Below, one piece after another: positions 931 to 27,472 of a stretch of 64,000 bases of DNA. Position 1 is the first letter of the stretch, and each line of letters starts with the position of its first letter. The notes beneath the pieces are model-generated. The model was not told the origin of the DNA. It did not search any database and was given only the letters and a program-made list of their open reading frames with translations. This stretch comes from Tomocerus qinae (lineage: Eukaryota; Arthropoda; Collembola; Entomobryomorpha; Tomoceridae): contig CM034546.1 of the NCBI GenBank assembly GCA_020055645.1, positions 128,795,875 through 128,859,874 on the forward strand. The letters run 5' to 3'. Made by a program: the position numbers and the translations under genes.

Positions 931-937
931 ACGAAAA

Positions 938-2754: not shown

Positions 2755-2771
2755 AGTAGATGGGGACAGTA

Positions 2772-2834
<63 letters not shown>

Positions 2835-2862
2835 CAGAGTCATAGTTACTCCCGAAGGAGTA
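2755..2862 (-). rRNA. 28S rRNA fragment (partial, displaced)
   Basis: Read on the minus strand, this block contains the highly conserved large-subunit segment GGGAGTAACTATGACTC, then TTAAGGTAGCCAAATGCC, TCGTCATCTAATTAGTGACG and CGCATGAATGGATTAACGAG, ending ATTCC.ACTGTCCC.ATCTACT. This is the core of eukaryotic nuclear 28S rRNA that includes the R2 retrotransposon target site. One base differs from the usual CTCTCTTAAGG (here CTCTGTTAAGG). Similarity stops on both sides: the expected AGCGAAACCACAGCC does not follow. It is therefore a fragment and not an rDNA unit. It could be an rRNA pseudogene or the head of a 28S-derived SINE. Confidence 0.85.
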
Positions 2863-3088
2863 AAGCCTACTCTCTTTCCCACAGCCAGCCTCTTATACCT
2901 CTTACTAAATGGATAGCTCTAGTTATACGTATCCTGTCTATATACAAGAATAGTTTTCCAGCTGACTTAGATCCACTATCGACAAGTGACTGTGACTAAA
3001 ACTGTTGGCGTGACTTTACTAAACTGACTAAACGGGTATTGTTTGGATGCATTCAATATTATTTCGCAGTTTCTATTTAACTCACTGC

Positions 3089-3356
3089 AAGTAACAGTTA
3101 TACGCGAATAATTTCAAAATGTTAAAAATTGCAAGTATGTATTTTTAAGTTACAGATGTTTTAACCGAATTTGAACTTTCAGAGTTGCCACAATTAGAGA
3201 TAAACGCATTTACATTTTTTGACACTAATGTTCGGTTGTACAGAATAAATACTAAAAACATATTAAATTTGTTTTTTAACTGAATATAACTATAGTTATA
3301 TTTACAACCTCATATTAAATTTGTTTTTTAACTGATTATAACTATAGTTATAGTTA
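3089..3356 (+). repeat. diverged direct repeat, right copy
   Basis: Partner of 2163-2503. Its 3' end contains an extra local duplication (ATTAAATTTGTTTTTTAACTG... at about 3263 and 3314). The 28S fragment lies between the two copies. Confidence 0.6.
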
Positions 3357-3975
3357 CAACCTCTGATATTCACTCTACACCCGTTTGTTACGGTTTATTA
3401 TATAATATCATTATTATCATGGCACCACTACTGGCAGCAGGGATTGGAAATGGAACTATACGTACTGTATGTTACATGGAACATCAGGCAGAAAGTCAGT
3501 CAGATCAGCGCTTCTGTAATCGTGCAATCCCGCTCGCTTGTAGTATGAAAGTAAAAGTGAATATTGAAAGGGAAAAGTGGTCAGAAATTAAAGATTGGTA
3601 AATAAAATAGTACATAAGTAAGGAATAAGGTAGTTAAGATGTTTTTATAATCTAGATATTATTTTACATTTGTGGGCGATTACTTCAGTAAACTAAACAT
3701 AATTTGTCTTGATTATTATTTTATTTGCTTGTCCCTCAATTTCTGATTTATTTGATTATTTTATTGTTGATTGTCACATTTCTGCATGGCATTTTGGCAT
3801 CGCCGTAGCCTTTTTGTATTTCAGTCGTTCAGTCAATTTAATATATTCAAATTTTAATTTTTCCTTTTCAAAAATAGTTTTTAAAACCATTGCAAATGTT
3901 GAATGTTCTATTTATTTTCGATTTGTTTAGAAGCTATGAACCAGAAAGAAGATTAATCCATTCTGCCAATTTGCA

Positions 3976-6485
3976 ATGAGTTTTCAAGAAAACAAAGGAT
4001 TAGCTTCAACACCCTGCAGTGACAGAAAGTCATCTGTACACCGGCCGAAAGCTGTCAATGTCGAAGAGCAGAAAAAAGAAATATTTTCAAAATTGAATTT
4101 CATTGAACTGTGCATCAAAGAAATTAATGGCACTCTTAGGAAAGATGAACATTTCTCAAAGGAGGAAGGGCAGTCGTGGAAATTTCCCCATTTGACATTT
4201 CCTGAAGTGGATGTCGACGCTTACTTGTCATCAATTCGTAAGAAGAACAACAATAAGTCATACGACGATCAGTACAAGAATCTTGTTGAAGTTCTCATAG
4301 ACCGACTGCATTTAGGAGTTAGAAAAACAAATCGATATTTTCAAGAACTAACAGTCGACTTGTTGCATCTGTCTGGAGTTCAACAGCATCTAGTTAGGAG
4401 ACTGACCTAGCGATATTTAAAATCCCGCTAAACAAGGTGACTTTGTTTTCGAAAATAAACGCCAGATCTAGTTAGTGATAAGGGGGTTCCCTTTACAATT
4501 TTCGTCTCAGCGCCACTATAACAGGAAAGTGGAGAACAAGTTGGAGGCAGATTTTGTCTCCCGGAGCCAAAATTTTGGGCCACAGTCTTTTAACTCATTC
4601 AACTGATTTACAACGTAAATCGCAAAGTTCGAATGAGTATAAATATTTTAACTAAACAGCATCATCATCTGGAAAGAAATGTCAAACATTGGCAAAGTAC
4701 AAGAATTTCAGCTGAACTACAATTGCTCTTTGACAATCTGCTTTTTATGAAGTCTGTGCTGTTCAATAAAAAATTGGTAAGGAAGGTGGAAGGTTTATTA
4801 TCTATTGTCTATTTGTAGGTAAAATTATGCTGCAAATACAGAAGTAAATGCTAAATCTTCATTTATTGCTTAGGGAAATTCAACATGTGATTCTGTCCCT
4901 TTAATATTGACTGAAAACACATCAACTGTTCGTCACTCCTCTAATATTCAGGTTGGTTTGGATACCTGTGTTTTGGAACTACCTTAAATATAGGTATGAA
5001 TTGTGCTTACTTTAGAATACTGGAGTTTTGACATCCTACATTGTTTCTGATAACATCTGTCAACAGAAGGATGACTTGGATATCAGCTTTAAGAAGATTG
5101 TTATGTTTCTAAAAGATTTCATACAGTTACTGCCCGACTTTATGGAGGATTTTAAATCGTCTGTTTTGGACATCAACTTGTAAGAATTAAAAATACGCAT
5201 TTAATAAACTAAAATTCAAAATATAAAATATTTTGTAATTTTATTGCTTATCTCGTACAGAGACGAAATTGAATTTTGTTCTGACGCTTCGGAAATGTTG
5301 TGCAAAGCAATGGAATCGGATTTTAAGCAAATACTGGACTATATATGCAAGATCATTGCGTTGGATTGCAGCTGCAGTGACTTGCGGAAGGAATTGGCAG
5401 ATTTAAAGATTAAAATTGATGCAGAATCTGAAGAATACAATTCCAAAGTTAGAGAAAAAGAAGACTTGATTACAAAACATCGTAATGTCAAAATGGCTAT
5501 GGCTACTAATGTCAAGAAAAGAGGTAAACTTATTCAAAAGTGACGTAAACTAAGACTAAGTTATTCAAAAGAAAGTCTTATATACTTACTTGGAAGAACA
5601 ATAATTAGATTGCAGGAGCCAGACGGACCAAAATGACGGGGAGAGATTGAAGGCTATCGAAGAAAGTATTCTGGCATTTCAAGCGGATAATAATGTGATA
5701 TCAAAAGATATTTGTGAAGTGCAGTCAAAATCCGAGAAGTTCAAAGAAGATAATTTGAAGCTGGAAGAGTTGAACAAAAATGAAGAGGCTATGATTGCCC
5801 TTACCGAGAAACAAATTCTGGAGGCAAAACGCTGCATGGAATCGCAATACTCACTTCTGGACAGAAATATTACAACAGTAAATGTAAGTTAACAAATTAA
5901 AGAATGTTAACTATTAACTATTCAAAAATTATATAAAAATAATAAAATATCATTGACCAGAATATTAAAACCCGAACTGAGTATATAATTAAAAGAGAGT
6001 TTTGTAAAATATCATTTACGATCTTTTTATATCAGAATCGGTTGGTTGTTGCTCATGGGAAGATATTGGCTCTAAAGGCTTCTGCCGGAAGTAAAGATGA
6101 AGTAATACAGAAGAAAGATGTCGAGATTCAATGTTTAAAGAAAACACTTTCTGCGAAAAAGCAATTGATACAAGACATGCTATTTAATCCCGAAGTAGGT
6201 GGATCTGAAAACGTAGTTGAAGGTAATTTTTTAGTATTTGAATATCATTTCCTATTAGTCTGACTGATTTTATTTTATATCATACTCATACAGTGTACCA
6301 TACAAATATAATTACAAATAGTAAGTTACCTTTTTATTGTTTCTGTTTCAGAGGCCAGATCTATTCGTGAAACTCTGAAGAAGCAAATAGAAGTAAATAT
6401 GGCTCGAATCAATGCTTTAGAAGACATGAACAGTACTTTAACTGGCGCCATAAAAAACTATGGCAAACAAGTGCATCATGACTAG
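3976..6485 (+). CDS. coiled-coil protein, 8 exons, function unknown
   Basis: Spliced model: 3976-4392, 4660-4776, 4874-4951, 5016-5179, 5261-5523, 5609-5883, 6036-6222 and 6352-6485. All junctions are GT-AG with matching phases, and the total is about 544 residues. The acceptor for exon 6 was placed at 5608 because the later AG at 5615 would break the frame. The N-terminal third is mixed and includes a WKFPHLTFPEVD segment. From about residue 250 onward the protein is rich in E, K, L and Q with heptad-like spacing (for example LRKELADLKIKIDAESEEY and IQKKDVEIQCLKKTLSAKKQ), which predicts a long coiled coil. There is no signal peptide or membrane segment. I do not recognise the family. A structural, cytoskeletal or spindle/axonemal role would be typical of such proteins, but nothing specific supports one. 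Confidence 0.7.
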
Positions 6486-6685
6486 AAATAAATCTAAAAA
6501 GATTTTGAAAAGTCCATTGAACCTCAATTTAAATCCTCTGAACTACTCTGAAGTAAAACTACTGCAAGTATATTTTTTGTAATATTTCCAATACTTTATA
6601 ATTCTAGTCTCTAGCATTTTTCGAAATCGAAAAGTACTGGTGCATAATTTATGTACAGCATATAATATTATTATGCTATTGCTGA

Positions 6686-7284
6686 CAGTGTACAAAATAC
6701 CATTTACTACTTACCAGTGGTAAGTGGTTTTTAATGGTATTTAACGTTAAATACCACTACGTAAAAAGTAGTGGTAAGTGGTATAAATGGTATAAATGGT
6801 AAAAAATAGTTTCATTTAAATTTCGTGTTTGAATTTTGAATAAAATTCGGTGCCAAAGTATGAAATAGCTTAGCAGATGATCATTGTTGTCACATATTGA
6901 TTAGTGTTCATCAATCAGAATAGGTTTCAACCAATAGGGGCGCTAACAACCCTTGCCGATTGAGAAATTAATTGCAATTAAATTAGCATCAATTTTAAAT
7001 GAGTGATACGAAATACAATCTTTTTGTCTTCATTTTTTTATAATTTTTGGTGTACAATCAAATAAATATGATTAATTTAATTGCTTAAGGGGCTAATTGG
7101 AAATATTTCGTAGAAAATAAAGTTTTATAACTTATATTTTAGGAAGTCTAGTGTATCTGTACTCAGCTGTCTAGTCAATCGCTAAAATTTACCATTTTTA
7201 CCATTAAATGCATTTTTACCATTAAGTGCATTTTTACCACTGTGATGGTAAAAAAGGCTAAAAAGTGGTAAATTTTGTACACTG
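6686..7284. mobile_element. hAT-like MITE with perfect 8-bp target duplication
   Basis: The element starts CAGTGTACAAAAT and ends with its exact reverse complement ATTTTGTACACTG. It is flanked on both sides by ATTGCTGA (6678-6685 and 7285-7292). An 8-bp duplication with CAG-type ends is the hallmark of hAT transposons. The interior is non-coding and rich in GGTAAA/TTTACC repeats. A second copy lies inverted at 27586-28167. Confidence 0.85.
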
Positions 7285-7889
7285 ATTGCTGATTTGGTTA
7301 AAGTTAGAAATTAAGGTCACTAATGGTTCTGGCATTCCAGTCACTACCAGCTGTAATAACAACATTAAAGAATTTATTTACAAACCGTTGAAGCTAACTA
7401 AGTGAAGTACTCGCTCTGTTTGAATTCTGTAAGTAGACACATGCATGAGTGTCCGTTGTGTAAACTAAAAAGCACAACTGTGAAAATGTATAGTAATATT
7501 TGTATAATTGATTAAGTGAAATTAAAGGGTGGGAAACATAAGGAAGATACAGTGAAAAATTTAACCATTAAGTTCCAGTCAGGATCTCTAGTAGCTCAAT
7601 TGGCAGAGCCTTTGACTTTGACACAACCAGTGCAAACTTTTTGCTGCGAAACTTACTGTTGACTAGGTTTAAATTAACAATTTACTTTTGTAAGTTAAAC
7701 AGATGTTCTTACGAAATATGGGCTTGCTTATTATGCTTAGCGAGTATCGATATAGTTGTCTTTAAAATTATTGGAAATTAAAAATCGTAATATGTATTAG
7801 CCTGTTATATTTATTGTGAGTATTACATTCTGGTATCTTTAAAGTTACGAAACACTAAAAATGTAGTTAATAAATTCAATTTTATGGCA

Positions 7890-8835
7890 GCAGTGCTTCC
7901 CTCTGCATCACGCTGATAAATAATTGTAGTAGCTTCTGTTAGAGGCCGCCTTGTCCACTTATGTTTAAAGATCTATAAAGAAAAGAAGCAACACTATGCC
8001 ACGCGCGCCATGATCACGTCATTGCTTCTTTAAGTGGCCGTCTGTCAACAGCAACTTTTTTCGCTGCGATTTTTTTGCGCATAAAGGGTAAAATTTTGAA
8101 AAATTTTGGTTTTTCGTTTTGTAAAACTGGTATTGGTAAGTCCAGAAACCTGTTGGTTTTCCGATAAAAGTGTTAACTTTATGACATTTACTAGTGTCAA
8201 ATACTTGGGTAAGCAAATGTTTATAACCATTAACAAGTGACGTACGCAATAATACCCATTGGATATGCAAGTTTATCCATTATTTAAATTTATTCGATTT
8301 TCATTAATATTCAATTGATAATTGTATTAGGGTTTGCTTGAAAATGACCAGTGACTCAGAATCCGATTCTAGCCACAGGACCACAGGAGTCGTTGCCGTA
8401 AAACTAAGAAAAATAAAAGACGCTCGAAACGTCTCGATAAATTGGAGAAATCTGTTCAACAGCTAACTAAGCAATTAAGGAAGAGAAAGGCAAAATACCG
8501 GTCAACTTCCAGTTCATCGGAAACTGATGATAAATCTCGGAGCAGATCTCGCTCACCGTTATCTCATAGTAGAGATTCTCCTTGTTCTCAAACCAGAGAC
8601 AATATTAGCTCGGTGCGATCCGATGCAAATATTCAGAAAGATGCCGACATCACACCCACCCTACCCGACCCAAATAATGGACAAAAAACGCTTTAAAAAC
8701 AATGACGTGATCATGGCTCGCGTGGCATAGTGTTGCTTCTTTTCTTTATAGATCTTTAAACATAAGTGGACAAGGCGGCCTCTGACAGAAGCTACTACAA
8801 TTATTTATCAACGTGATGCCTTCGGGAAGCACTGC
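7890..8835. mobile_element. inverted-repeat element, about 135-bp arms, around an SR-rich ORF
   Basis: The left arm at about 7890-8024 is repeated in reverse complement at about 8700-8835 with only a few mismatches. Shared blocks include GCAGTGCTTCC, GATAAATAATTGTAGTAGCT, CCACTTATGTTTAAAGATCT and CATGATCACGTCATTG. The arms enclose about 675 bases holding the ORF remnant at 8344-8696. No clear target duplication is seen. Long inverted termini around an SR-rich gag-like ORF would suit a deleted DIRS-type (tyrosine-recombinase) element, but no recombinase or reverse transcriptase is present, so this class is only a suggestion. Confidence 0.6.
8344..8696 (+). pseudogene. SR-rich gag-like ORF, frameshifted
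   Basis: An ATG at 8344 opens MTSDSESDSSHR. Within about 40 bases the sensible frame shifts to one reading HRSRCRKTKKNKRRSKRLDK, then a short coiled-coil LEKSVQQLTKQLRKRK, a Ser-rich tract, KSRSRSRSP and a tail ending at 8696. The acidic start, basic middle and RS tract resemble N-terminal gag-like regions of DIRS-type elements and SR-type proteins. The frameshift lies near 8375-8385 (a duplicated ACAGG context). It is wholly contained in the inverted-repeat element and is therefore probably its relic cargo. Confidence 0.45.
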
Positions 8836-9194
8836 TTAATAAAATTACGATCGAACTTCACGTAAGTTCGCTTAATCGTACAATTAATGATATTAGAAGT
8901 TTACTAATGATTTTTAAATATTGTTTTAAATTTTTAAACCTTTTAAAATTGATTTTAAAGTAGAATTATAGTTTTAGTCAAAATATAGAATTTCCAGAAA
9001 AATTAAAATGCATAATAGGAATTTTAAAGTTTTAATTGATTACAAATTGTTATTGTAACTAATTATTAAATTAATCTCAGTTATCAAATATTCTTTTAAC
9101 AGGTTTAAGAGAATAGTGAAAGATGGGAACTTGTAAGTTTATTATCATTATTTCTTTTTGTATGAATATTTCGTTTGTATTTGACGAGAGTGTC

Positions 9195-10576
9195 TTAGCC
9201 TTCAATTTGGATCTCTTCATAATTCGGAATTGTGTCATACAAAAGCTTGTCAATTTTAAAAGATTGCCTTTGATAGATAAAAGGTCTTCGTGGATAAATC
9301 CGGTCGTTAACCCAATTCATAGTGCTCCATCCTTTTGTAGTATTCACGCAGTTCTTGGCAAAGTCGGTCAATGAGTATTTTTTCTCAAGTTGAAAACAGC
9401 CGGTAATGAAAATATCCACGTATGACTGAACAATCGGAAATTCTTTTGTGGGGTAGGCAGTGAATTGGGGTATATTCACGTAGATCCAGTATTGCTTCTG
9501 TCGTGTATATGGCTTATCCTTTTCAGGCTCAACGAAGAATTTAATATTTGCAGAGCTCACCTGAACACGGCAGTAGTAATATTCTCTGTTGTCGTAACTA
9601 TATAAAACAAGACAAGGAATTTTGTATACATCATTTACGTAACGATAATTAAGGGTGGCGTGTAGCGAGATAACTTAAGCATACGCTTTGTGTGTATTAA
9701 TTAGGATTACAGTGTAGCCCGTATTTATTTACCAAAAGTCTAAAATTTCCAAAAAGTGGCGGAAGGTGAACCTCTCGGACTTGTGGCTCAGGTAAATTTT
9801 CTAATAAGTTTTGAGTTATAGCGTTAGCGGGAAATCATATCTTCCCGCTAACGCTATAATTCAAAACGCATTATTTTTTTAATATTTCGGAGCTACAAGT
9901 TGCAGATATTCACCTTCCGCCACTTTTTGGAAATTTTGAAGACTTTTGATAAATAAATACAGGCCACACTCTAATCCTAATTAATTCACAAAAAGTGCAT
10001 GCTCAACTTACTCCGGTAGTAGCCACCCTTAATGTTTGCAAATTATTTGGAGCATATCTGAGATAGATAAATGGGTAATGTTGTTATTGATACCTTATTA
10101 GAGAGGTACTATTTGGTAACTTGAACACCACTGCGTTGAAATCGGCTTCTGGGTAGGGAATGACGCCAAGATAAGTTGCGTCAGGACCATAAGTAAGTCC
10201 CTTCGAGCTCCACTCCCGTTGAAAACCGGAAACCTGAACTGGAATGCTGACTCCTGTGTTATTGTTCGTACTATTTTTTGAACCAGATTCCATCAGGGAA
10301 CCATATCCGATAATGTAATGATCACTTAAGTCATTAGGGAGCGGATGGCAGGCGGCAGCATATTCAGTCTTTTGCAATGTAGAGCTATCGTCAGATTTTA
10401 AGCTGCTCTAAAATGTTTTACTTAATAGATGACTATAATTCAGATAACCAATTGTCGTTTTTAGGAACCGATTAAAAATTAGAGTTTAGATTACTGTTTT
10501 AAGCACTTACCGCATCGGAAAATGAAACGCAGGTGAGTAGCACTGCAAAATAGATGAAACTTTTCAAGTTTGACAT
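9195..10576 (-). CDS. secreted gamma-glutamylcyclotransferase / AIG2-like protein
   Basis: Three-exon minus-strand model: 10576-10511, 10407-10094 and 9597-9195, phases consistent. Exon 1 encodes a signal peptide (MSNLKSFIYFAVLLTCVSFS, ending DA). Exon 2 has the family's opening YIIGYGSLMES, the P-loop-like substrate-binding turn of GGCT folds, then VSGFQREW and TYLGVIPYPEADFNAVVFKL. Exon 3 gives YDNREYYYCRV, whose E-Y-Y-Y-x-R-V strand is diagnostic, then IVQSYVDIFITGC and WVNDRIYPRRPF. GGCT-fold enzymes release 5-oxoproline from gamma-glutamyl amino acids or glutathione. The long form with PIVQSYVD..GC and NDR.YPRRPF resembles bacterial and plant proteins more than animal GGCT or ChaC, so transfer is possible. 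The signal peptide implies export or a vesicular location. A MITE occupies intron 2. Confidence 0.8.
9649..10032. mobile_element. foldback MITE in intron 2, TTAA ends (piggyBac-like?)
   Basis: The ends are TTAAGGGTGGC and GCCACCCTTAA, and long arms pair through ATTAATTAGGATTA, GTATTTATTTA.CAAAAGTC and TTTCCAAAAAGTGGCGGAAG down to a central TAGCGTTAGCGGGAA stem. TTAA at both extremes fits a piggyBac-type target. It lies wholly inside the intron of the AIG2-like gene and should be removed by splicing. Confidence 0.75.
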
Positions 10577-11102
10577 CCTGCGGCTTGTTCTGCGAGAATT
10601 TCAAATACAATTTCTTTATTATTATACTATAATTGTAAAATTTCAGATTTTCTTTAAAATGACTCAAAAAATGATTTTATGATTAATAACCAATATCAGT
10701 TCGATTGGCAATGAGTTTTAAATTGTGAAAATGCACTTCGCATTTACGTAAATAACGATGAAAATGAAAATATTATTGAGGCAACCTTTATTTTCTAATT
10801 AAAAAATAGTTTTGCAGAGAATGTTGGCGATGCTTTTATAAAGGACCTGGTATCACTTATGCTTCGTACTACAACATAGCTGGGGTTTGAAAAATTCGCA
10901 TGCAGAAGATGTTCATGGGTATTACAGTTAAAAGCATTTATTCATTAGACAGGGTAAAGGAGGTGCAGCTTTTACGAAATGACAGAATACTAAATTAATG
11001 AGTTTCTTCACTATTTTTCTATTCCAGCAATACTTGGACGGAATATTAACATTAAAAGTTCATTTTTACTGTTAAAGGTCAATATTATATTGGTATTGCA
11101 CT

Positions 11103-11290
11103 CAGGCACGTATCTAGAAATTTGTTCAAGGGGGGGGGCGGAAGCAAAAATTATACAAAAAATAAGACATATTCGCGCGAAGCGCGAAAAAATTTTGCAA
11201 TTTTTGGCCATTTTTGAGAAAAAAATTCTCTTTTTCTTAGATTTAGGGGGGGCGCTGCGCCCCCCCGCCCCCCTACTAAATACGTGCTTG
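11103..11290. mobile_element. short G/C-hairpin MITE, copy 1
   Basis: The ends CAGGCACGTATCTAG and CTA.ATACGTGCTTG are inverted. The interior has G-runs, the palindrome CGCGCGAAGCGCG and a GGGGGGGCGCTGCGCCCCCCC stem. The flanks TTGCACT and ATGCACT (6 of 7 matching) suggest a 7-bp target duplication. The same family is at 16718-16910. Confidence 0.7.
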
Positions 11291-11299
11291 ATGCACTAC

Positions 11300-13930
11300 A
11301 CAGCTACATCAGAAACTAGGGAATTGACTTTTAGCATTGAAAGTTCGGTTTTAATATTAAAGGTCAATATTTCTTGCAGTTATACTGGTATTACACTATA
11401 CAGCTACATCAGCACTGTTGTGAACTATGTCCACGAACTTTGAAAACGAACAGTCATTTCTTGTAAAATACAGAACATCTTTGAATAAATATCGTTTAAA
11501 AGACGTAGACAGTTGTTTATATTCTTCGGAGGAAGCCTTGCACTACTAACCAAAGAGCAATGATGAATGAGAATGAGGTAATGCACAAAAAGAAATTCTT
11601 GTGCAAATGTTTATGTAAATAAATACTTATCATTGCAGTACCGGATTGAAGAGTTTCACAATTTTTTCCTGTACTACTGTACACAAATACGCTGTACTTC
11701 TGCATTCTATTGTAAACATTTACAGACTTCATGTAACCGAATGCTAACCTTCTAAATGGTCGCTTAGCCTACCTGTTTCATTAACTTGGCTTATAGCTGA
11801 GTTGCATAACTCTGCATAATTATTTACTTAGTTTAAACTTTGTATTCATTCTATTTTTCCTTTTGGATCTATTTTTTGTTATTAATTCTCTGTGTTTTTC
11901 AGCAACACGTCTATGTAGCCATTATATCTATATGATATCATATAACATATTTATAACATATAATATCTATATAACATCAACATAATTAGTTTTCCTTTTA
12001 CCGATAGCGTTATAATAATTATAATAATAAGAGTAGGTAATAAAAGAAATGGAAATGACGCACAGGGAGGTAGGCTCTATTAAAATTGATAGCATGTTAC
12101 ATTCTCACTTAAAAAAATTATTAGCATACCCATCTGAAAGTGGGATCTTAACTGCCTACTACAACAGGACCGGCAGTATTACCTTTTCATTATGGGATTC
12201 ACCACGAGTCAAACAGTCAAACTTATGAGTACATTCGAGTTCAACAGGAGCCAACAAAAAGTGGTGCAGAGCATTAGGTATTCCTCTTTTTGAAGTTTTT
12301 GGCAGAATCATAATTATATAATATTTTATTCATTAACTTCTGTAGATCGTCGTTTGAGTCACAAATTAATTTTTAGGTTGAAGTTATGGTAAATGCATGT
12401 AATAATGAATTATTACAAAAAAGTCTTGCTTAGTAATTTCTGCTTACTGAATTACATCTTAATTACATATTACATTTTTATACTTTTCGGCGAATATGGT
12501 TTGAAATGCATGGCAGATATGATTTTTTAATAAATATTACTTGAGTTATTTTAATTGAGGATTATGTCCATAGTCTATTAAGTAATTAATACTTATCTTC
12601 TTAAACTTGAAGGTTATTTTAGGGTTACCCTTTATACCACATCTAATCGTGACTATTCGATTGGTTTACAAATCAGTTTAATTTTCAGTATCTTTAATGT
12701 TAATTAACTGTTAAGACAATCTTAAGCTGTTATCACATGATGAAGCTGCACTGGACATAGTATTAGGTGGCTTTAGGAGTTCTTTAGGAGTAAAGTCTTT
12801 TAGGAGTGATTCCCTCGTAGGAGTCCTTCCATGTAATCCATTAATTCATTCCAAAATGGAGAAAGTGTACGCAAGGGACTTTATTTTAAACGTAAAATTG
12901 TATACAGATTTCTTAATTCAGTTGTAATATTTACTCTGTGCATAAATGATTAGTAAAGTTAAGCTGGTATTAATTAAGTTAAACGAATTGCTAGAGAAAG
13001 GTAAGTAAAGGGGTTAAGTATATATCTCGCAAATTATCAAAGTAATTACATTTAATTTACATAACTGTCAGACATTGGACCTAACTGCCTCCATCCTAAC
13101 CTACACTAACCCTGTTTCGTATAGGTACGTTAAGAATTCAGACTCGACCTTGAGAGTTCACATTAATCAGGAGATAGCTAAAGTGGTGCAGACTCTAATC
13201 CTTTAGTTGGCTCTTATCAAGTTTCGCCATGCAAATCCCTCCTTTTCCAATTCTCAGCCAAATTCTTTATCTAAATGTTCCAAATCAACTTTTGGATATT
13301 AATTTAGCTCCTCATTTCATCGTATGGTCACGTATGGCTATGAATCTTTTGTTTCTATACGTCATTACATTCTAACCAGATCATTTGCACTGACAATCCG
13401 GTTCCCAAATTATGCGTCTTCTTCTTATATATACTAACTCCCTCAATTTGAAAGATATACATGGCTTAGTCTCCATAAAAACTCCGAGTCCTTGAAAACT
13501 GGTTGCTCAGCAATTGTAAAGCCAACCAGAACACAAATATTTAACTTTCTTCTTATTCTCAAAATTATTCTCAATGCAAATAATATTCATATGGATATGG
13601 ACACTATACTATACTATACTATGTCTACCTACAAGACACCGGCTCAAATATAGTACGCCCAAGTATATAGGTAGTTCACTAACTGAGATAATAATAATAT
13701 GGGTACACTGCATGGGTACATGCAATTTTCATACTTTTGTGTACATTGCGTACACAGTATACATAAAACAACACAATTTATCTTACAACTGACATTTTTA
13801 TATGGATTATTATAATGCGATAAAAATATGCGCACTATTTGGTACCTATAGGTAATATATTATCACATTATCAGTAAAAACTGCATTAGTTTTTACTTAG
13901 TTACTTAGTTACTTAGTTACTTAGTTTTTA
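11300..13930. other. gene-free AT-rich interval
   Basis: No gene is supported here. Open frames near 11517-11732 and 13574-13835 are short, lack splice partners and show no family resemblance. Minor features are a partial duplication of the flank of the preceding MITE (near 11355-11400), a TTTAGGAGT cluster near 12770-12810, an ACTAT microsatellite near 13600 and a (TTACTTAG)n run near 13890-13925. Confidence 0.5.
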
Positions 13931-13938
13931 ATTAGTGA

Positions 13939-14253
13939 GAAAGTCCCCAGGGACTTTCTAGCACCCTTTTTCTATTTTCAAAATGTTCCCGAAGGCAGAC
14001 TAAATAATTGTTGAATTTAAGCAGCGGTCACTATTTTCGCCTCTTTTCTGACCTAACCTAATAAAAGATAAACTATTTTTAATTAGGTTAGGTCAAAAAA
14101 GACCGAAAAATAGTGACCGGCAACGAGGTACTGATTGTTATAATATTATGATGATGATGATTTAGAATTAATTTTGATGATAATAATCTGCCTTCGGGAA
14201 CTTTTTGGAAACATAAAAAAGGATGCTAGAAAGTCCCCGGGGACTTTCTAGCA
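13939..14253. mobile_element. foldback MITE with GAAAGTCCCC ends
   Basis: Left GAAAGTCCCC.GGGACTTTCTAGCA and a following GTTCCCGAAGGCAGA are mirrored on the right by TCTGCCTTCGGGAAC and TGCTAGAAAGTCCCC. A second inner pair, GACCTAACCTAAT...ATTAGGTTAGGTC, flanks a short loop. An extra GCTAGAAAGTCCCC follows at 14263-14276. There is no coding capacity. Confidence 0.7.
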
Positions 14254-15014
14254 CCTGCAGATGCTAGAAAGTCCCCTAGATCTGATTGTATGCTTGTAGG
14301 TAAGTTTGGAAGATTTTCTGAGAATTAATTTATAATTCAATTCCAATTTTAATATTTGTCATCCCTGAGATCGAGTATCGGTTAAATATTTTCAAACAAT
14401 ATTTATACAAGTAGTAAAAAATCCAGCCAGACTAGAATTTAGTATTTACACTAACTTTGTAAGGGATATGACCAGATATGGTTGTTTGGTCTACTTTTTA
14501 TCATAAGATATTATAAGGCGAGACCCAATAATTATTAAATCATCGAGTTCAGAATAGTATGGTGACCTTCCCACTGGACCCATGTAAAGAAAATACATGG
14601 GTAGTGTATTGTTTACTTTCGTCATATTCTAAAACGTAAGTACCTACATTACATCCAGTCTGGGTTATGCAATACACACTCCATGTCCATAATATATAAC
14701 TACATGAAAATTACAGTAGTGTGTACTAGCAAAGTACATGGACTATGGACTACTTTAATCTCTGTGGATGCTGAAGAGTTTAATATATACGCTTTGTTCT
14801 ACCTGTTTATCAACATTGCCTATCGACCGGAATTCTGAACAGCGTCTTTCAATTTAATTGGGAGTCATGAAACTTTCGTCCTGTTTTCCTCGCTTGTCGC
14901 TGGCATTCCATTTGAAAGGAACTGTAATTTCCAAAATATGGAAGCAAATCATATTTTTAACACTTTACACAACTGTAATAACTTATCTCGTGGCTACTGA
15001 CAGTGCGACGTTTA

Positions 15015-16079
15015 TTACGAACGCCACATTACTTTTCTGAATAGACCTCGCGAACAATGGGATTAAAAGATAAAAAGACAATGAAAGCCCTCGCTCGACT
15101 CGGCTCACCGAGGCATATGCGTACCTATTGAAAGAGTGCACAGTGGGTTTAAGTCATAAGAAAAGTGGACATAACGGCGCAGTGTAATGAGTAAGGAGTA
15201 GGGACTAGGAGATGGTTGAAGAGCATGAATTACACATTGTAAAGTGGCACACAAATAAATAAAGCACAAAACACTCAGAAATTAAACAATTAAAATTTAT
15301 TTTTTAATCAATATTTTTAAAAATTATAAAGCGAATTGTTTTTAAAAACGAAAACTCACACAAAAAACATTTTCCCATAAAAGCCAAATATTTCGACAAA
15401 CTCGTACAAAAATTGACGATTTCGTTTAAATGTGAGATGTTTAGACCAGTTCACACATAAAACGAAGTTTTAGTATAAATGCAAATTGTTTGGTCAAACT
15501 CGAACTTAAAATGACGATTTTGCAAAAATACGAATTGTTTCGGCAAACTCGTACAAAAAGCGTAAATTTCGTACAATTGCGAATTGTTTAGACCAATTCG
15601 CAACAAAAACGAAGTTTTCGTATGAATGCGAATTGTTTACACCAATTCGCACTAAAAACGACATTTTCGCAAAATACGAATTTTCTCGGCTAACTCGTGC
15701 AAAAAAATTAAATTCGTATAATTGAGTTTTTTGTGTGAGTTTTCGTTTTTAAAAACAATTCGCTTTATAATTTTTAAAAATATTGATTAAAAAATAAATT
15801 TTAATTGTTTAATTTCTGAGTGTTTTGTGCTTTATTTATTTGTGTGCCACTTTACAATGTGTAATTCATGCTCTTCAACCATCTCCTAGTCCCTACTCCT
15901 TACTCATTACACTGCGCCGTTATGTCCACTTTTCTTATGACTTAAACCCACTGTGCACTCTTTCAATAGGTACGCATATGCCTCGGTGAGCCGAGTCGAG
16001 CGAGGGCTTTCATTGTCTTTTTATCTTTTAATCCCATTGTTCGCGAGGTCTATTCAGAAAAGTAATGTGGCGTTCGTAA
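15015..16079. mobile_element. 1.07-kb perfect foldback element inserted at TA in a coding exon
   Basis: Arms of about 354 bases (15015-15368 and 15726-16079) look identical by eye as reverse complements, with tips TTACGAACGCCAC and GTGGCGTTCGTAA. TA is present on both sides (15013-15014 and 16080-16081). The 357-base loop holds degenerate repeats of a unit containing GCGAATTGTTT and CAATTCGCA. There is no ORF of note. Near-identical arms imply a young insertion. Confidence 0.9.
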
Positions 16080-16204
16080 TAATTTCCCTCAAAAGCAAAC
16101 TTTAATTTCCGTTTTGGGTGTAGTGACGTCACTTCTTTTAGCTTTCAGAACTAATACTGCCTACGACAGGTAAACTCACAATAATAATAATAAACCGTTG
16201 CAAA

Positions 16205-16600
16205 ACGGGGTATAACAGCAGAGGAGTTTCGTTCCAAAGCATCACCAATTGAAATTTATTTAGGTAGTTTAGGTATAACCGTTCTAAAGTTATCGCCAAT
16301 TGAAATTTTCAACCCTTTCCCCCAATCAGGGGATGTGACCGACCCTCCTCATATACAAACTCAGACCTACATTTTACCTCAATATTGTGCTCTGAAAATT
16401 TGAGTAGTTTAGGTATAACCGTTCCAAAGTTATCGCCAATTGAAATTTTCAACCCTTTCCCCCAATCAGGGGATGTGACCGATCCTGCTCATATACGAAC
16501 TCAGACCTACATTTTACCTTAATGATGTATCCTGAAAATTTGAATTGTCTAACTTAAACCGTTCGAAAGTTATTGCGGATAAGGACGGACAGACAGACAG
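16205..16600. repeat. about 140-bp tandem repeat in the bestrophin-like intron 1
   Basis: TTATCGCCAATTGAAATTTT recurs at 16290 and 16430, with partial copies near 16240 and 16565. Each copy is followed by CAACCCTTTCCCCCAATCAG. The last copy runs into a GGACGGACAGACAGACAGAC microsatellite. Confidence 0.7.
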
Positions 16601-16717
16601 ACAGACAGAAAGTGTAAACGCATACATAGGAGTAAACTCCTCTGAATAATGACAAATATAGTTTTTCTATTTCAACCAAACCACAGTGAGTCATTTTACA
16701 ATTGAAACTAACACGAT

Positions 16718-16910
16718 CAGTGCCGTATTTAGAAGTCGATTTCGGAGGGGGCAATGATATCATAGAAAAATTTTGGCTTATTTTGTCTAAAATGAGTCAA
16801 AAATAACCTAAAAATCACATAAAATCGCGCGAAGCGCGAAATTTCCATTTTTCTTGGATTTCGGGGGGGGGGCATTTGCCCCCAATGCCCCCCCCCTCAA
16901 TACAGCCTTG
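16718..16910. mobile_element. short G/C-hairpin MITE, copy 2, with target duplication
   Basis: Same architecture as 11103-11290: CAGTGCCGTATTTAG start, CGCGCGAAGCGCG palindrome, G-run/C-run stem and a CTCAATACAGCCTTG end. It is flanked by ACACGAT at 16711-16717 and 16911-16917, a perfect 7-base duplication. Confidence 0.8.
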
Positions 16911-17029
16911 ACACGATAGACATTCAGTAAATAACATTTTTATAAAATAACACCCTTTTAAGTAGGCTATGAGATTTTTATCAACTTTAGTTTTTCAATG
17001 CAAACGATGTCTCTTACTAAATTTACACC

Positions 17030-17190
17030 ATTTTGGTTCAATTCAGTCCAATAAAGTTCAATTCGGTCCAATAAAGTCCAATTCAGTCCAATTCGGTCCA
17101 ATAAAGTCCAATTCGGTCCAATAAAGTCCAATTCGGTCCAATAGAGTCCAATTCGGTCCAATAAAGTCCAATTCGGTCCAATCTATATAG
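17030..17190. repeat. minisatellite of CAATTCGGTCCAATAAAGTC units
   Basis: About seven copies of a 20-22 base unit, with an internal half-unit AATTC.GTCC, in intron 1 just upstream of bestrophin-like exon 2. A short related run recurs at 19990-20035. Confidence 0.85.
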
Positions 17191-20159
17191 CCCTTTAAAT
17201 TACTCGGGTGCAAATAAATTGTAATTATCTGGTTCTAGATACTATGAGGGTCGTCGTCTTTGGTCCACTATGACACAACATATTCGGACAATTACAAGAT
17301 TGCTTTGGATTGGTGTGAAGGAGCCAAGTGTTCGCGAAATCATCGAGAAGAAAACTGCTCTAAATATCCTAATCGCCTTTGCATACGCAACAAAAAATTA
17401 TTTGAGAGACGGCTATGATTATGATTCGGAAGAAATTAAAAATTTGACAAAGAATTTGCCCAAGTTTGGAAATGTATCGAAGGATCTGCCTGCTGCGACT
17501 GAACTAAAGAGAAAGGAATCTTCCAAAGATGACACTTCTATTGACATTCGGAAGATGAGTGTCAAGCCAGTAGAATCTGATTTTAAAGCCCATGATTGGT
17601 CAACTCCAACTAACATCCCTGTTGAATTGTCATACTATTTGCAGTCCTACATCGAGTATTTGCGAGCTAGGGAACTTTGCGATGGCTCTTTGCTGTGGAC
17701 GATGACTGGGGGTAAGTATTATAGAAAACAATTTAAATATGCAAATTTGTACTCATATGTGGTTAACGTTATTAAATTATTAAATGGGCACCTTCAATTC
17801 GAAATATTAGTATGCTATTAGTATTATACTATTAGTATGATGATTCTAGATTACTTTTTAGTCATTGTTTGTGAAAAAATACAAACATCTTAGTAGAAAT
17901 TATTTTAATGTATGATATGGAATATTCCGCTTTAAGCGAAATAATCTAAACCCGAATGAATGTATCGAATGTCATTTTGAATTGAAATATCCCCATAGAA
18001 CTTAATTATGTGTGATTTTCGATGCACGTCTAATATTAGAAACTTGTGGTTGATATTAAATAGGCAAAATCTTCTGAAATGTAATAACTCCTATTGTCAA
18101 TAGAAAATTGTATGTGAATTTGTGAATTGCGACCGATTTCAAGGTTAAAATGCTTAGTAGAAAGTAAATAAGTAAATACCTCGCTAATGTTTAATTATTA
18201 ATCATAAACAGACTAGCGACAACAAACTAATTTTTGTCTATAAGATTTACAAACATGGCATTCATTCCGATTGACATACATCTGAGAACTGAACGGTTTT
18301 AAAACGTGCCAATATTGATCTGTTTTAATTAACCTGAGTTAAATTACAAATTGTATTTTGTTTAGTTCACTCTGAAGTTGAGTCTGAAGAAAAAAGAGAC
18401 CATACTAAAACATTACGTAACTGATGATCCTATAAAGTATGCGTATTTCGAGTATTCTTCAGAGCCAATCGTAGTAGAGATATAATTCATTCATAAATTC
18501 ACTTGATCCTCATTGCAAAACCTGGCGCTACTTCTTTTTTAGCAATGTATACCTAACAAAGTAATCCTATATACCTACTAACCTTCAGAAATTCAGGTAT
18601 GATTATTATAAATGCCATCGGTAACAATTGTGCGTTGTAGCCAGTTTTACGTCTAAGCATTTGTAAATGAATGAATCTTAACAATAATGTCATAATACTA
18701 TGATTATTATTATAGTAGTTTCCTTTTTAAGATACTTTTCAGAATCATTCAATAGCTACAAAGAATTTTCAATTTGTATAAGATGCAGTAATCATAAAAT
18801 TTTTATAACAGCATGACAAAACTAATAAGAATTATTAACAAAGTGTTATTTAATTTAGCCATTGGAAATCTCATGGATTGCTTCGTTGGATTTGAGCGAA
18901 TTGTTCGGACTCCAATTCCTTTGGCCTATGCAATTCACTTGCACCACGCAGTTTGGCTTTACTTGCTTTGTCTACCTTATCAACTCGTAGCAGATTTGCA
19001 ATGGTGGACGATACCTGCTGTTAGTTTGGCTGGCTTTACACTCTTAGGAATTCTGTGCATCGGATATGAAATCGAAAACCCATTTGGACTCGATGATAAC
19101 GATTTGGTAAGTTTACTAACTGGTTTAGAAATAAATACAACTTACAATTTTATACATAAAAATAAATAGTACCTGTTGAAATAAATTTTTGTAGTTGTGG
19201 ATTAATTTAATTTTAAATACTTAACAGCCGTTGGACGATAGCTGCAAAGTAATTGAAAATGAAATTAAGACGATGACAAGGATTGCACTTCCCACAGTCG
19301 AATCTTGGCTTTGGACTCCAGACAATCAGCCATTGGCTCCAGAATCCCTTTTAACTGCAGATCAATTATCTGAAAAAACTGTCGAGGAAGTTAGACTCAT
19401 TATAGCCAAAGCTGAAGCAATGCGAGATGGATTCCAGATTCCCCCAAAGACGTCCTCTTCCTTAATGTCCTTATTCCGTAACATTAATGAAGATGCAACA
19501 AGACATTAGATAGGCAGGCTCAAATTTTATACACAATATAGTTTATTCAGTACATCAGTTTATTTAGAGGCTTAAAAACTATCCAATATTGAAAAAGTAA
19601 ACTAATGACTTAAGTTTATCTTCAAAAGTATTAAACAATGAGCTATAAATACAAGAATTGAAGATTTGCAATTAAATATACAGCTCTCAATGATAATCTA
19701 ACGTGGAATAACATTGCCAAATGAAGATTTTTATCCTCATAATATCTATTAAGTATTTTTATTTTGTGTTTTACCTTTACCAAATAAAATTATCGTTGAT
19801 TTTCATTAATCAAACTTATTTTCGTTTGTAAAATGTCACTTACAGTTCTAGTAATATTAGGTTCCTTATTTCAGGACATTATTGGGTACCTACTTTTATT
19901 TTTGAGACGGAAATAACCCAGCAAGGATTGTCAGCGGAAGCTTTTAACCTTTGCCTTAGAGATTTTGTCCAAATTTCATTTTAAATGAATTCAGTCCAAT
20001 TCGGTCCAATTCGGGCCAATGAAATTCAATTCGGAATGTTTTATCATGTTAACGTGTTTGTAAGTAGTAATTTTCCACAGCATAGGAATTGCACAGTTCC
20101 TTGCGCTTGTGTGCTAACACAAAGTTTATCTTATGGATTCATACATAAGTTTTTTTCTA

Positions 20160-20693: not shown

Positions 20694-23600
20694 TATCAAG
20701 AACCAACAATTGTGTGGGCCCTTAAACCTTGCCATTCAATCCAAATGAGGCTTGGAGGTTGTTAATAGGACTAGTAGGTAGTTGATAAAAATTATTTCAA
20801 CCAGTTCTATAGTTTCGATCAAAAGTTATTTAATTCTAAGTGGAAACTAGAACAACAAAATTTAATTTATCAAGAAACAACAATTTTGTGGGCCCTTAAA
20901 CCTTGCCATTCAAACCAAATGAGGCTTGGAGGTTGTTAATAGGGCTAGTAGGTAGTTGATAAAAATAGTTTCAAACAGTTTTATAGTTTCGATCAAAAAT
21001 TAATTAATTCTAAGTGGGAGTTAGAACATCAGAATTTAATTTATCAAGAACCAACAATTTTGTGGGCCCTTAAACCTTGCCATTCAATCCAAAAGAGGAT
21101 GGAGTGTGATTGATAGGACTAGTAGGTACTTAATAAAATTAATTTCAAACAATTCTATAGTTTCGATCAAAATTTATTTAAGTCTTAGTAGAAAATAGTA
21201 CTATAAAATTTCATTTTCAAAGTACCAACAGTTTTGTGGGCCCTTAAACCTTGCCATTCAATCCAAATGAGGCTTGGAGGATGTTAATAGGACTAGAAGT
21301 AGTTGCTAAAAATAGTTTCAAACAGTTTTATAGTTTCGATCAAAAATTATTTAATTCTAAGTGGAAACTAGAACAACAGAATTTCATTTTTCAAGCACCA
21401 ACAATTTTATGGGCCCTTAAACCTTGCCATTCAATCCAAATTAGGATTGAAGGTCATAAATAGGACTAGTAGGTATTTGATAAAAATTGTTTCAACCAGT
21501 TCTATAGTTTCGATCAAAAGTTATTTAATTCTAAGTGGAAACTAGAACAACAAAATTTAATTTACCAAGAAACAACAATTTTGTGGGCCCTTAAACCTTG
21601 CCATTCAATCCAAATGAGGCTTGGAGGTTGTTAATAGGACTAGTAGGTATTTGATAAAAATAGTTTCAACCAGTTCTATAGTTTCGATCAAAAGTTATTT
21701 AATTCTAAGTGGAAACTAGAACAACAAAATTTAATTTACCAAGAACCAACAATTTTGTGGGCCCTTAAACCTTGCCATTCAATCCAAATGAGGCTTGGAG
21801 GATGTTAATAGGACTAGAAGTAGTTGATAAAAATAGTTTCAAACAGTTTTATAGTTTCGATCAAAAATTAATTAATTCTAAGTGGGAACTAGAACAACAG
21901 AATTTAATTTATCAAGAACCAACAATTTTGTAGGCCCTAAATCCTTGCCATTCAATCCAAATGAGGATTGTGGGTGATTGATAGGACTAGTACGTACTTG
22001 ATATAAATTGTTTCAACCAGTTCTATAGTTTCGATCAAAAGTTATTTAATTCTAAGTGGAAACTTGAACAACAGAATTTCATTTTTCAAGCACCAACAAT
22101 TTTATGGGCCCTTAAACCCTGCCATTCAATCCAAATTAGGATTGAAGGTCATAAATAGGACTAGTAGGTATTTGATAAAAATTGTTTCAACCAGTTCTAT
22201 AGTTTCGATCAAAAGTTATTTAATTCTAAGTGGAAACTAGAACAACAAAATTTAATTTACCAAGAAACAACAATTTTGTGGGCCCTTAAACCTTGCCATT
22301 CAATCCAAATGAGGCTTGGAGGTTGTTAATAGGACTAGTAGGTAGTTGATAAAAATAGTTTCAACCAGTTTTATAGTTTCGATCAAAAGTTATTTAATTC
22401 TAAGTGGAAACTAGAACAACAAAATTTAATTTACCAAAAAACAACAATTGTGTGGGCCCTTAAACCTTGCCATTCAATCCAAATGAGGCTTGGAGGTTGT
22501 TAATAGGACTAGTAGGTAGTTGATAAAAATTATTTTAACCAGTTCTATAGTTTCGATCAAAAGTTATTTAATTCTAAGTGGAAACTAGAACAACAAAATT
22601 TAATTTATCAAGAAACAACAATTTTGTGGGCCCTTAAACCTTGCCATTCAAACCAAATGAGGCTTGGAGGTTGTTAATAGGGCTAGTAGGTAGTTGATAA
22701 AAATAGTTTCAAACAGTTTTATAGTTTCGATCAAAAATTAATTAATTCTAAGTGGGAGTTAGAACATCAGAATTTAATTTATCAAGAACCAACAATTTTG
22801 TGGGCCCTTAAACCTTGCCATTCAATCCAAAAGAGGATGGAGTGTGATTGATAGGACTAGTAGGTACTTAATAAAATTAATTTCAAACAATTCTATAGTT
22901 TCGATCAAAATTTATTTAAGTCTTAGTAGAAAATAGTACTATAAAATTTCATTTTCAAAGTACCAACAATTTTGTGGGCCCTTAAACCTTGCCATTCAAT
23001 CCAAATGAGGCTTGGAGGATGTTAATAGGACTAGAAGTAGTTGCTAAAAATAGTTTCAAACAGTTTTATAGTTTCGATCAAAAATTATTTAATTCTAAGT
23101 GGAAACTAGAACAACAGAATTTCATTTTTCAAGCACCAACAATTTTATGGGCCCTTAAACCTTGCCATTCAATCCAAATTAGGATTGAAGGTCATAAATA
23201 GGACTAGTAGGTATTTGATAAAAATTGTTTCAACCAGTTCTATAGTTTCGATCAAAAGTTATTTAATTCTAAGTGGAAACTAGAACAACAAAATTTAATT
23301 TACCAAGAAACAACAATTTTGTGGGCCCTTAAACCTTGCCATTCAATCCAAATGAGGCTTGGAGGTTGTTAATAGGACTAGTAGGTATTTGATAAAAATA
23401 GTTTCAACCAGTTCTATAGTTTCGATCAAAAGTTATTTAATTCTAAGTGGAAACTAGAACAACAAAATTTAATTTACCAAGAACCAACAATTTTGTGGGC
23501 CCTTAAACCTTGCCATTCAATCCAAATGAGGCTTGGAGGATGTTAATAGGACTAGAAGTAGTTGATAAAAATAGTTTCAAACAGTTTTATAGTTTCGATC

Positions 23601-26600
23601 AAAAATTAATTAATTCTAAGTGGGAACTAGAACAACAGAATTTAATTTATCAAGAACCAACAATTTTGTAGGCCCTAAATCCTTGCCATGCAATCCAAAT
23701 GAGGATTGTGGGTGATTGATAGGACTAGTACGTACTTGATATAAATTGTTTCAACCAGTTCTATAGTTTCGATCAAAAGTTATTTAATTCTAAGTGGAAA
23801 CTTGAACAACAGAATTTCATTTTTCAAGCACCAACAATTTCATGGGCCCTTAAACCCTGCCATTCAATCCAAATTAGGATTGAAGGTCATAAATAGGACT
23901 AGTAGGTATTTGATAAAAATTGTTTCAACCAGTTCTATAGTTTCGATCAAAAGTTATTTAATTCTAAGTGGAAACTAGAACAACAAAATTTAATTTACCA
24001 AGAAACAACAATTTTGTGGGCCCTTAAACCTTGCCATTCAATCCAAATGAGGCTTGGAGGTTGTTAATAGGACTAGTAGGTAGTTGATAAAAATAGTTTC
24101 AACCAGTTCTATAGTTTCGATCAAAAGTTATTTAATTCTAAGTGGAAACTAGAACAACAAAATTTAATTTACCAAAAAACAACAATTTTGTGGGCCCTTA
24201 AACCTTGCCATTTAATCCAAATGAGGCTTGGAGGTTGTTAATAGGGCTAGTAGGTAGTTGATAAAAATAGTTTCAAACAGTTTTATAGTTTCGATCAAAA
24301 ATTAATTAATTCTAAGTGGGAACTAGAACAACAGAATTTAATTTATCAAGAACCAACAATTGTGTGGGCCCTTAAACCTTGCCATTCAATCCAAATGAGG
24401 CTTGGAGGTTGTTAATAGGACTAGTAGGTAGTTGATAAAAATTATTTCAACCAGTTCTATAGTTTCGATCAAAAGTTATTTAATTCTAAGTGGAAACTAG
24501 AACAACAAAATTTAATTTATCAAGAAACAACAATTTTGTGGGCCCTTAAACCTTGCCATTCAAACCAAATGAGGCTTGGAGGTTGTTAATAGGGCTAGTA
24601 GGTAGTTGATAAAAATAGTTTCAAACAGTTTTATAGTTTCGATCAAAAATTAATTAATTCTAAGTGGGAGTTAGAACATCAGAATTTAATTTATCAAGAA
24701 CCAACAATTTTGTGGGCCCTTAAACCTTGCCATTCAATCCAAAAGAGGATGGAGTGTGATTGATAGGACTAGTAGGTACTTAATAAAATTAATTTCAAAC
24801 AATTCTATAGTTTCGATCAAAATTTATTTAAGTCTTAGTAGAAAATAGTACTATAAAATTTCATTTTCAAAGTACCAACAGTTTTGTGGGCCCTTAAACC
24901 TTGCCATTCAATCCAAATGAGGCTTGGAGGATGTTAATAGGACTAGAAGTAGTTGCTAAAAATAGTTTCAAACAGTTTTATAGTTTCGATCAAAAATTAT
25001 TTAATTCTAAGTGGAAACTAGAACAACAGAATTTCATTTTTCAAGCACCAACAATTTTATGGGCCCTTAAACCTTGCCATTCAATCCAAATTAGGATTGA
25101 AGGTCATAAATAGGACTAGTAGGTATTTGATAAAAATTGTTTCAACCAGTTCTATAGTTTCGATCAAAAGTTATTTAATTCTAAGTGGAAACTAGAACAA
25201 CAAAATTTAATTTACCAAGAAACAACAATTTTGTGGGCCCTTAAACCTTGCCATTCAATCCAAATGAGGCTTGGAGGTTGTTAATAGGACTAGTAGGTAG
25301 TTGATAAAAATAGTTTCAACCAGTTCTATAGTTTCGATCAAAAGTTATTTAATTCTAAGTGGAAACTAGAACAACAAAATTTAATTTACCAAAAAACAAC
25401 AATTTTGTGGGCCCTTAAACCTTGCCATTTAATCCAAATGAGGCTTGGAGGTTGTTAATAGGGCTAGTAGGTAGTTGATAAAAATAGTTTCAAACAGTTT
25501 TATAGTTTCGATCAAAAATTAATTAATTCTAAGTGGGAACTAGAACAACAGAATTTAATTTATCAAGAACCAACAATTTTGTGGGCCCTAAAGCCTTGCC
25601 ATTCAATCCAAATGAGGATTGTGGGTGATTGATAGGACTAGTACGTACTTGATATAAATTGTTTCAACCAGTTCTATAGTTTCGATCAAAAGTTATTTAA
25701 TTCTAAGTGGAAACTAGAACAACAAAATTTAATTTACCAAGAACCAACAATTTTGTGGGCCCTTAAACCTTGCCATTCAATCCAAATGAGGCTTGGAGAA
25801 TGTTAATAGGACTAGTAGGTAGTTGATAAAAATAGTTTCAAACAGTTTTATAGTTTCGATCAAAAATTATTTAATTCTAAGTGGAAACTAGAACAACAGA
25901 ATTTAATTTATCAAGAACCAACAATTTTGTGGGCCCTAAAGCCTTGCCATTCAATCCAAATGAGGATTGTGGGTGATTGATAGGACTAGTACGTACTTGA
26001 TATAAATTGTTTCAACCAGTTCTATAGTTTCGATCAAAAGTTATTTAATTCTAAGTGGAAACTTGAAACACAGAATTTCATTTTTCAAGCACCAACAATT
26101 TTATGGGCCCTTAAACCTTGCCATTCAATCCAAATTAGGATTGAAGGTCATTGATAAGACTAGTAGGTATTTGATAAAAATTGTTTCAACCAGTTCTATA
26201 GTTTCGATCAAAAGTTATTTAATTCTAAGTGGAAACTAGAACAACAAAATTTAATTTACCAAGAACCAACAATTTTGTGGGCCCTTAAACCTTGCCATTC
26301 AATCCAAATGAGGCTTGGAGGATGTTAATAGGACTAGAAGTAGTTGATAAAAATAGTTTCAAACAGTTTTATAGTTTCGATCAAAAATTAATTAATTCTA
26401 AGTGGGAACTAGAACAACAGAATTTAATTTATCAAGAACCAACAATTTTGTGGGCCCTAAAGCCTTGCCATTCAATCCAAATGAGGATTGTGGGTGATTG
26501 ATAGGACTAGTACGTACTTGATATAAATTGTTTCAACCAGTTCTATAGTTTCGATCAAAAGTTATTTAATTCTAAGTGGAAACTTGAACAACAGAATTTC

Positions 26601-27472
26601 ATTTTTCAAGCACCAACAATTTTATGGGCCCTTAAACCCTGCCATTCAATCCAAATTAGGATTGAAGGTCATAAATAGGACTAGTAGGTATTTGATAAAA
26701 ATTGTTTCAACCAGTTCTATAGTTTCGATCAAAAGTTATTTAATTCTAAGTGGAAACTAGAACAACAAAATTTAATTTACCAAGAAACAACAATTTTGTG
26801 GGCCCTTAAACCTTGCCATTCAATCCAAATGAGGCTTGGAGGTTGTTAATAGGACTAGTAGGTAGTTGATATAAATAGTTTCAACCAGTTCTATAGTTTC
26901 GATCAAAAGTTATTTAATTCTAAGTGGAAACTAGAACAACAAAATTTAATTTACCAAAAAACAACAATTTTGTGGGCCCTTAAACCTTGCCATTTAATCC
27001 AAATGAGGCTTGGAGGTTGTTAATAGGGCTAGTAGGTAGTTGATAAAAATAGTTTCAAACAGTTTTATAGTTTCGATCAAAAATTAATTAATTCTAAGTG
27101 GGAACTAGAACAACAGAATTTAATTTATCAAGAACCAACAATTGTGTGGGCCCTTAAACCTTGCCATTCAATCCAAATGAGGCTTGCAGGCTGTTAAAAG
27201 GACTAGTAGGTGCTTGATAAAAAAAATTTCAAACAGTTTTATAGTTTCGATCAAAAATTAATTAATTCTAAGTGGGAACTAGAACAACAGAATTTAATTT
27301 ATCAAGAACCAACAATTTTGTGCGCCGTAAAGCCTTGCCATTCAATCCAAATGAGGATTGTGGGTGATTGATAGGACTAGTACGTACTTGATATAAATTG
27401 TTTCAACCAGTTCTATAGTTTCGATCAAAAATTATTTAAGTCTTAGTAGAAAATAGTACAACAGAATTTCGT
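20694..27472 (+). repeat. 174-bp satellite array, about 39 copies
   Basis: The monomer contains GGGCCCTTAAACCTTGCCAT, TCAATCCAAATGAGG, ATAGGACTAGTAGGTA, TATAGTTTCGATCAAAA and AACTAGAACAACA. CCTTGCCATTC occurs at 20727, 20901, 21075 and 21249, giving the 174-base period. Monomer types recur in a higher-order pattern: the same variant (with GATGTTAATAGGACTAGAAG) is at 21251, 22989 and 24901, which is 10 then 11 monomers apart. Because 174 is divisible by three, short frames stay open across monomers; these are not genes. The right array at 42555-49310 is the same family in the opposite orientation. Confidence 0.95.

Follow-up and report, generated by a model that had tools for sequence, protein, structure and literature searches.

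A TA-flanked foldback DNA element with perfect inverted arms in exon 1 of a Bestrophin_2 gene of Tomocerus qinae

The described elements closest in build to the one reported here are the aphid mariner-like elements of the LTIR (DD40-41D) clade, with the MITEs that go with them. In the available part of PMC5490172, the pea-aphid members of this clade have terminal inverted repeats (TIRs) of 460-466 bp, and the MITEs derived from the clade measure 411-441 and 790-822 bp. The Drosophila virilis foldback element Tetris also has long inverted arms, together with internal tandem repeats and no conserved ORF, according to the accessible text of PMC4079207. A DNA transposon in a coding exon has been documented in the sodium channel gene of Myzus persicae, where 8 of 148 field clones had a heterozygous 2,076-bp MULE (PMC8201860, in the part available). 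For another aphid, a count across three gene families gave 27 TE fragments lying in coding sequence; the excerpt of PMC9783078 describes most of them as non-interrupting and so gives no sign that disruptive exonic insertions are common. Finally, SOS splicing (Zhao et al., Nature 2026, as presented in the citing papers PMC13247085 and PMC13155455) is outlined in the available text of these papers as an excision of transposons from mRNAs followed by RTCB ligation (PMC13247085), which in animals is set off by terminal inverted repeats and is spliceosome-independent (PMC13155455).

The locus described here lies in a window of 64,000 nucleotides, by which we mean the whole stretch of T. qinae DNA that was analysed (contig CM034546.1, positions 128,795,875 to 128,859,874). 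Among the proteins encoded in the window are an innexin and an AAA ATPase, which identify its host as an animal. The original prediction placed a foldback element inside a coding exon with a TA on each side, and this was confirmed. The element and its borders are composed as follows.

15013-15014, no strand: left TA, target-site duplication
15015-16079, no strand: non-autonomous foldback DNA element of 1,065 bp, delimited by arm and border analysis, the single copy seen within the window
15015-15368, plus strand: left inverted arm of 354 bp, starting with TTACGAACGCCAC, 100% complementary to the right arm
15369-15725, no strand: core or hairpin loop of 357 nt, with ~7 degenerate tandem units of ~49 bp
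15726-16079, minus strand: right inverted arm of 354 bp, ending with the reverse complement of TTACGAACGCCAC
16080-16081, no strand: right TA, target-site duplication

Before trimming, the inverted pair at 15012-15368 and 15726-16082 is 357 nt long on each side, 100% complementary and spaced by 357 nt. The length of 1,065 bases and the TA on each side agree with what had been predicted, but the element is not the simple palindrome it was taken for, its middle third being an array of ~49-bp units. With long inverted arms flanking a loop, 15015-16079 has the structure of a foldback element, and the TA duplicated at its borders is of the kind that a Tc1/mariner-type MITE leaves as its target-site duplication. 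The palindromic ends permit four readings of the borders with a 2-bp duplication; we prefer a TA duplication and a 1,065-bp element because TA targeting is common among transposons. TA accounts for 9.5% of the dinucleotides in the window, which puts a TA on both sides by naive chance at ~0.9%. No duplication longer than 2 bp was found at the element ends over 14 end offsets and lengths of 2-12, which does not fit a Mutator-type foldback, in which the target duplication is ~8-11 bp. An assembly artefact was dismissed by argument alone, since a chimeric fold-back would have copied the flanking DNA and would not have produced a unique core with TA flanks. The element contains three AATAAA and five ATTAAA motifs, eight polyadenylation-like hexamers in all. 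A search of Rfam at the gathering threshold returned no match. A separate small hairpin with 46-nt inverted repeats (85%) and a 3-nt loop is located at 14025-14119, just upstream of the bestrophin gene.

Most likely the element is a DNA transposon which is non-autonomous, targets TA and belongs to the long-TIR MITE/foldback kind. Its status as a transposon, or as a repeated element at all, we infer from its anatomy, as no second copy was seen. Allowing up to three mismatches, the 13-base end matched the window five times, two of these being the element's own ends, against a chance expectation of 8.04, and blastn of the element against the window gave no other real match. Two patterns retrieved no copy from viral_contigs, and genome_contigs yielded a single 18-bp match, in a Udaeobacter MAG contig, which did not extend and was taken as chance; both collections are unlikely to hold insect repeats. 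The search for further arm copies and empty sites that had been called for thus returned none from the window or from these two collections, where insect repeats are hardly to be expected.

The resemblance to the aphid LTIR elements and their MITEs consists of the TA duplication, the long inverted repeats and the MITE-sized derivatives without a functional transposase, while the printed termini differ and a tandem-repeat core is not mentioned in the available part of that report (PMC5490172). When the termini of the element were compared with the 15 aphid mariner TIRs printed there, all 15 scored no better than shuffles (in the lowest case 99 of 500 shuffles were as good), although the host's own elements may differ from those of aphids. 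A Tc1/mariner-type transposase is most plausibly the mobiliser, but with termini that match no printed aphid mariner TIR beyond shuffles the superfamily is a guess. Tetris is similar in its long inverted arms, internal tandem repeats and lack of a conserved ORF; it differs, in the accessible text, in having duplications of 8-10 bp and repeats in the arms (PMC4079207), whereas the present element has a 2-bp duplication and repeats in the core.

Other repeats were noted in the same window. Two 6.7-kb arrays of a 174-bp repeat at 20694-27469 and 42552-49248 are inverted relative to each other, are ~87-91% identical in the alignments listed, and flank minus-strand ORFs at 33417-38511, one of which has a Ulp1/C48 peptidase domain (PF02902). 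The two arrays and the ORFs between them have the appearance of one foldback transposon of ~28.5 kb whose arms are made of satellite; a gap of 100 N adjoins the array on the left. Inside this giant inverted structure, tandem arrays of 32 bp form head-to-head pairs at 31505-31742 and 41720-41891, the two sites being mutual inverted copies (172 nt, 89.5%). Homogeneous tandem arrays are located at 50687-53257 (170-bp units, 15.1 copies, 97%) and 60820-61764 (303-bp units, 3.1 copies, 99%). The heptamer TAGGTAC, a motif that may be linked to aphids, is enriched in the window together with its complement (20 occurrences, the figure for ten simulated sequences being 4.7). The longer TAGGTACCTA does not occur there, and TAGGTACC, with 2 occurrences versus 0.8 expected, is barely above expectation.

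The gene that harbours the element has four coding exons, the first of them in two parts.

14867-15014, plus strand: exon 1 of the Bestrophin_2 gene, first part, from the ATG to the insertion, based on the joined reading and its Pfam match
16082-16169, plus strand: remainder of exon 1, up to a GTAAAC donor, based on the Pfam match of the joined exon and on splice-site analysis
17239-17711, plus strand: exon 2, up to a GTAAGT donor in phase 1
18844-19106, plus strand: exon 3, with an uncertain start; of the two acceptors, 18843 keeps the phase but is weak, and 18811 scores better but does not keep the phase with the strong exon 2 donor
19228-19509, plus strand: exon 4, including the stop codon

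Joining 14867-15014 to 16082-16169 gives a single open frame of 78 residues, MKLSSC...ATDSATF-NFPQKQTLISVLG...TAYD. Residues 10-78 match positions 10-77 of the Pfam profile PF25539 (Bestrophin_2) with E 1.8e-11, and since the match crosses the junction it bears out the prediction that removal of the element plus one TA joins the exon halves in frame. With the insert retained, the frame reaches a stop ~8 codons beyond the insertion point, inside the element. Restoration of the frame is in itself weak evidence: 314 of 961 arbitrary cut pairs near both borders also gave an open in-frame join, and any target-duplicating insertion restores the frame when it is removed with one copy of the duplication, so that restoration is expected here. 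It fits an insertion into a once-open exon and, given how often arbitrary cuts are in frame, is no sign of a removal mechanism. In BLAST comparisons the joined protein is 27-33% identical to four bacterial relatives. Gaps of up to 6 columns interrupt this alignment in the loop behind the junction, so that homology does not place the join to the residue; it is the TA duplication that places it.

With the acceptor at 18843, the joined exon 1 and exons 2-4 encode a 417-residue protein with no internal stop. An alternative join of exons 2 and 3 gives a 429-residue model which scores 211.6 bits against PF25539 (gathering score 27; profile positions 10-287 of 288; E 2.3e-62). The first 236 residues of the bestrophin model match solved bestrophins (best E 2.6e-6), and the match to PF01062, the usual animal bestrophin type, has an E of 7e-4 and lies under its cut-off. 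Judged by these profile matches, the gene at 14867-19509 is of the bacterial/fungal Bestrophin_2 type and not of the usual animal type, and a horizontal acquisition is possible. NCBIfam returned one match only, below its cut-off, and of 12 stretches in viral_contigs that fit the pattern for relatives of the joined protein none was confirmed.

The most plausible explanation for these observations, with a probability of roughly 0.7, is that a long-TIR MITE/foldback transposon mobilised in trans inserted at a TA in exon 1 of the Bestrophin_2 gene and disrupts this allele. The non-autonomous element would have been moved by a TA-targeting transposase supplied in trans, would have entered a TA in the first coding exon and duplicated it, and would have left the remainder of the gene open. 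A read-through transcript would then meet the stop ~8 codons past the insertion and thereafter the eight polyadenylation-like hexamers, and its 357-bp hairpin could be a Dicer substrate. The insertion is probably fairly recent. The 354-bp arms show zero differences, which corresponds to an age of at most ~1.5 million generations at an assumed mutation rate of 2.8e-9 per site and generation and without gene conversion; gene conversion between the arms could mask a greater age. A very recent transposition that knocked out the allele had been proposed; the knockout is the best-supported reading, but "very recent" is not borne out, as identical arms allow ~1.5 million generations. The insertion may be heterozygous or polymorphic, or the animal may be able to do without the bestrophin gene; that the gene is open apart from this disruption might also reflect tolerance of the insert. 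The MULE of M. persicae is comparable as a DNA transposon which brings premature stops into a coding exon and was found in one allele; in the available part of PMC8201860 it is 2,076 bp long with imperfect repeats of 109 bp, compared with 1,065 bp and perfect arms here.

Other explanations differ from disruption by insertion in the state of the gene or in the fate of the insert. The element may have struck a gene that was already a pseudogene, or the gene model may be wrong, and it is the join of exons 2 and 3 that bears on this. The donor of exon 2 (GGGG|GTAAGT) is strong and in phase 1; the higher-scoring acceptor, 18811, requires phase 2 and breaks the frame with it, whereas the in-phase 18843 ranks at the 9th percentile among scored AG sites. 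A microexon that would repair the phase was sought, and 22 mechanical phase-fitting candidates gave 4 that passed the donor filter and none that was convincing. A second defect in the gene is possible, since exons 2 and 3 keep the phase only if the weak acceptor 18843 or another donor is used. With 18843 the coding sequence is nevertheless open throughout, and exons 2-4 score 116.9 Pfam bits by this route and 114.9 via the alternative donor and 18811, both above the cut-off; the gap is too small to decide how exons 2 and 3 are joined. The claim that all other exons are open consequently stands as regards internal stops, given the in-phase join, but has to be qualified for the ambiguous splice phase between exons 2 and 3, and we regard a previously dead gene or a wrong model as very unlikely. 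Slightly less probable again is that ordinary splicing treats the insert as an intron, using cryptic GT-AG sites and yielding an internally shortened protein. Among donors in 14868-15199 and acceptors in 15900-16167, five in-frame, stop-free GT-AG pairs do span the insert, with donors at 14883, 14924, 14975, 14990 and 15003, contrary to the initial view that no usable pair flanks it. Sites were ranked with a rough matrix, GT sites being scored over positions 100-20000 of the window; by this measure the cryptic acceptors at 16095 and 16123 lie at the 73rd and 86th percentile, compared with the 64th-77th for the gene's own when the doubtful 18843 (9th) is excluded. The cryptic donors, however, lie at the 16th-87th percentile against the 98th-99.7th for the gene's own, and of the 78 residues that exon 1 encodes the five options would cost 13, 18, 18, 35 and 58. 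The initial view is correct in part, as the donors are weak and 13-58 residues would be lost.

Removal of the insert at the level of RNA or DNA was also considered. Loss in some cells or from the RNA had been put forward at the outset as the other alternative; SOS splicing, a published route to the latter, had not been named there. It has been described in worm and human cells, and in T. qinae it would require that the arms pair in the transcript, that the hairpin is excised independently of the spliceosome and that RTCB ligates the ends, so that the allele yields some functional mRNA. The predicted fold of the transcript (1,116 nt) is one unbroken stem of 357 contiguous pairs from 15012 to 16082, with an MFE of -718.4 kcal/mol, and it extends 3 nt past the element at either end; by prediction, then, the inverted repeats pair as in an SOS substrate. 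The likeness to SOS-spliced mRNAs lies in these inverted repeats within the mRNA, which here are known from the DNA (the comparison draws on the available text of the citing papers). Exact loss of the element and one TA yields the family sequence, and the rest of the gene is open given the in-phase join of exons 2 and 3; an otherwise open gene is, however, expected equally from a young insertion, and excision of the element with both TAs kept would shift the frame, so that loss of one TA is required. The anatomy appears suited to SOS splicing and would offer a clean natural test of it, which is different from evidence of removal, and we consider such removal unlikely. Programmed or somatic DNA excision resembling that of ciliate IESs, which the original prediction had brought up, is hardly credible. 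The insert is TA-bounded and would leave one TA after removal, but TA-targeting transposons account for these flanks, the innexin in the window points to an animal host, and in a comparison by eye the ends differ at two positions from the Paramecium IES end consensus; nothing but the TA borders speaks for it.

If this is an ordinary disruption by insertion, the locus adds a further case to the known exonic transposon insertions and points the way to a hairpin family that awaits classification. There is a small chance that T. qinae instead holds a near-perfect natural SOS substrate outside the worm and human systems, which keeps a channel gene functional despite an exonic transposon. The prediction from SOS splicing is sharp, a single junction from 15014 to 16082, and if the mRNA proved to be healed in this way, this would be evidence that genes in natural populations are protected by RNA-level excision.
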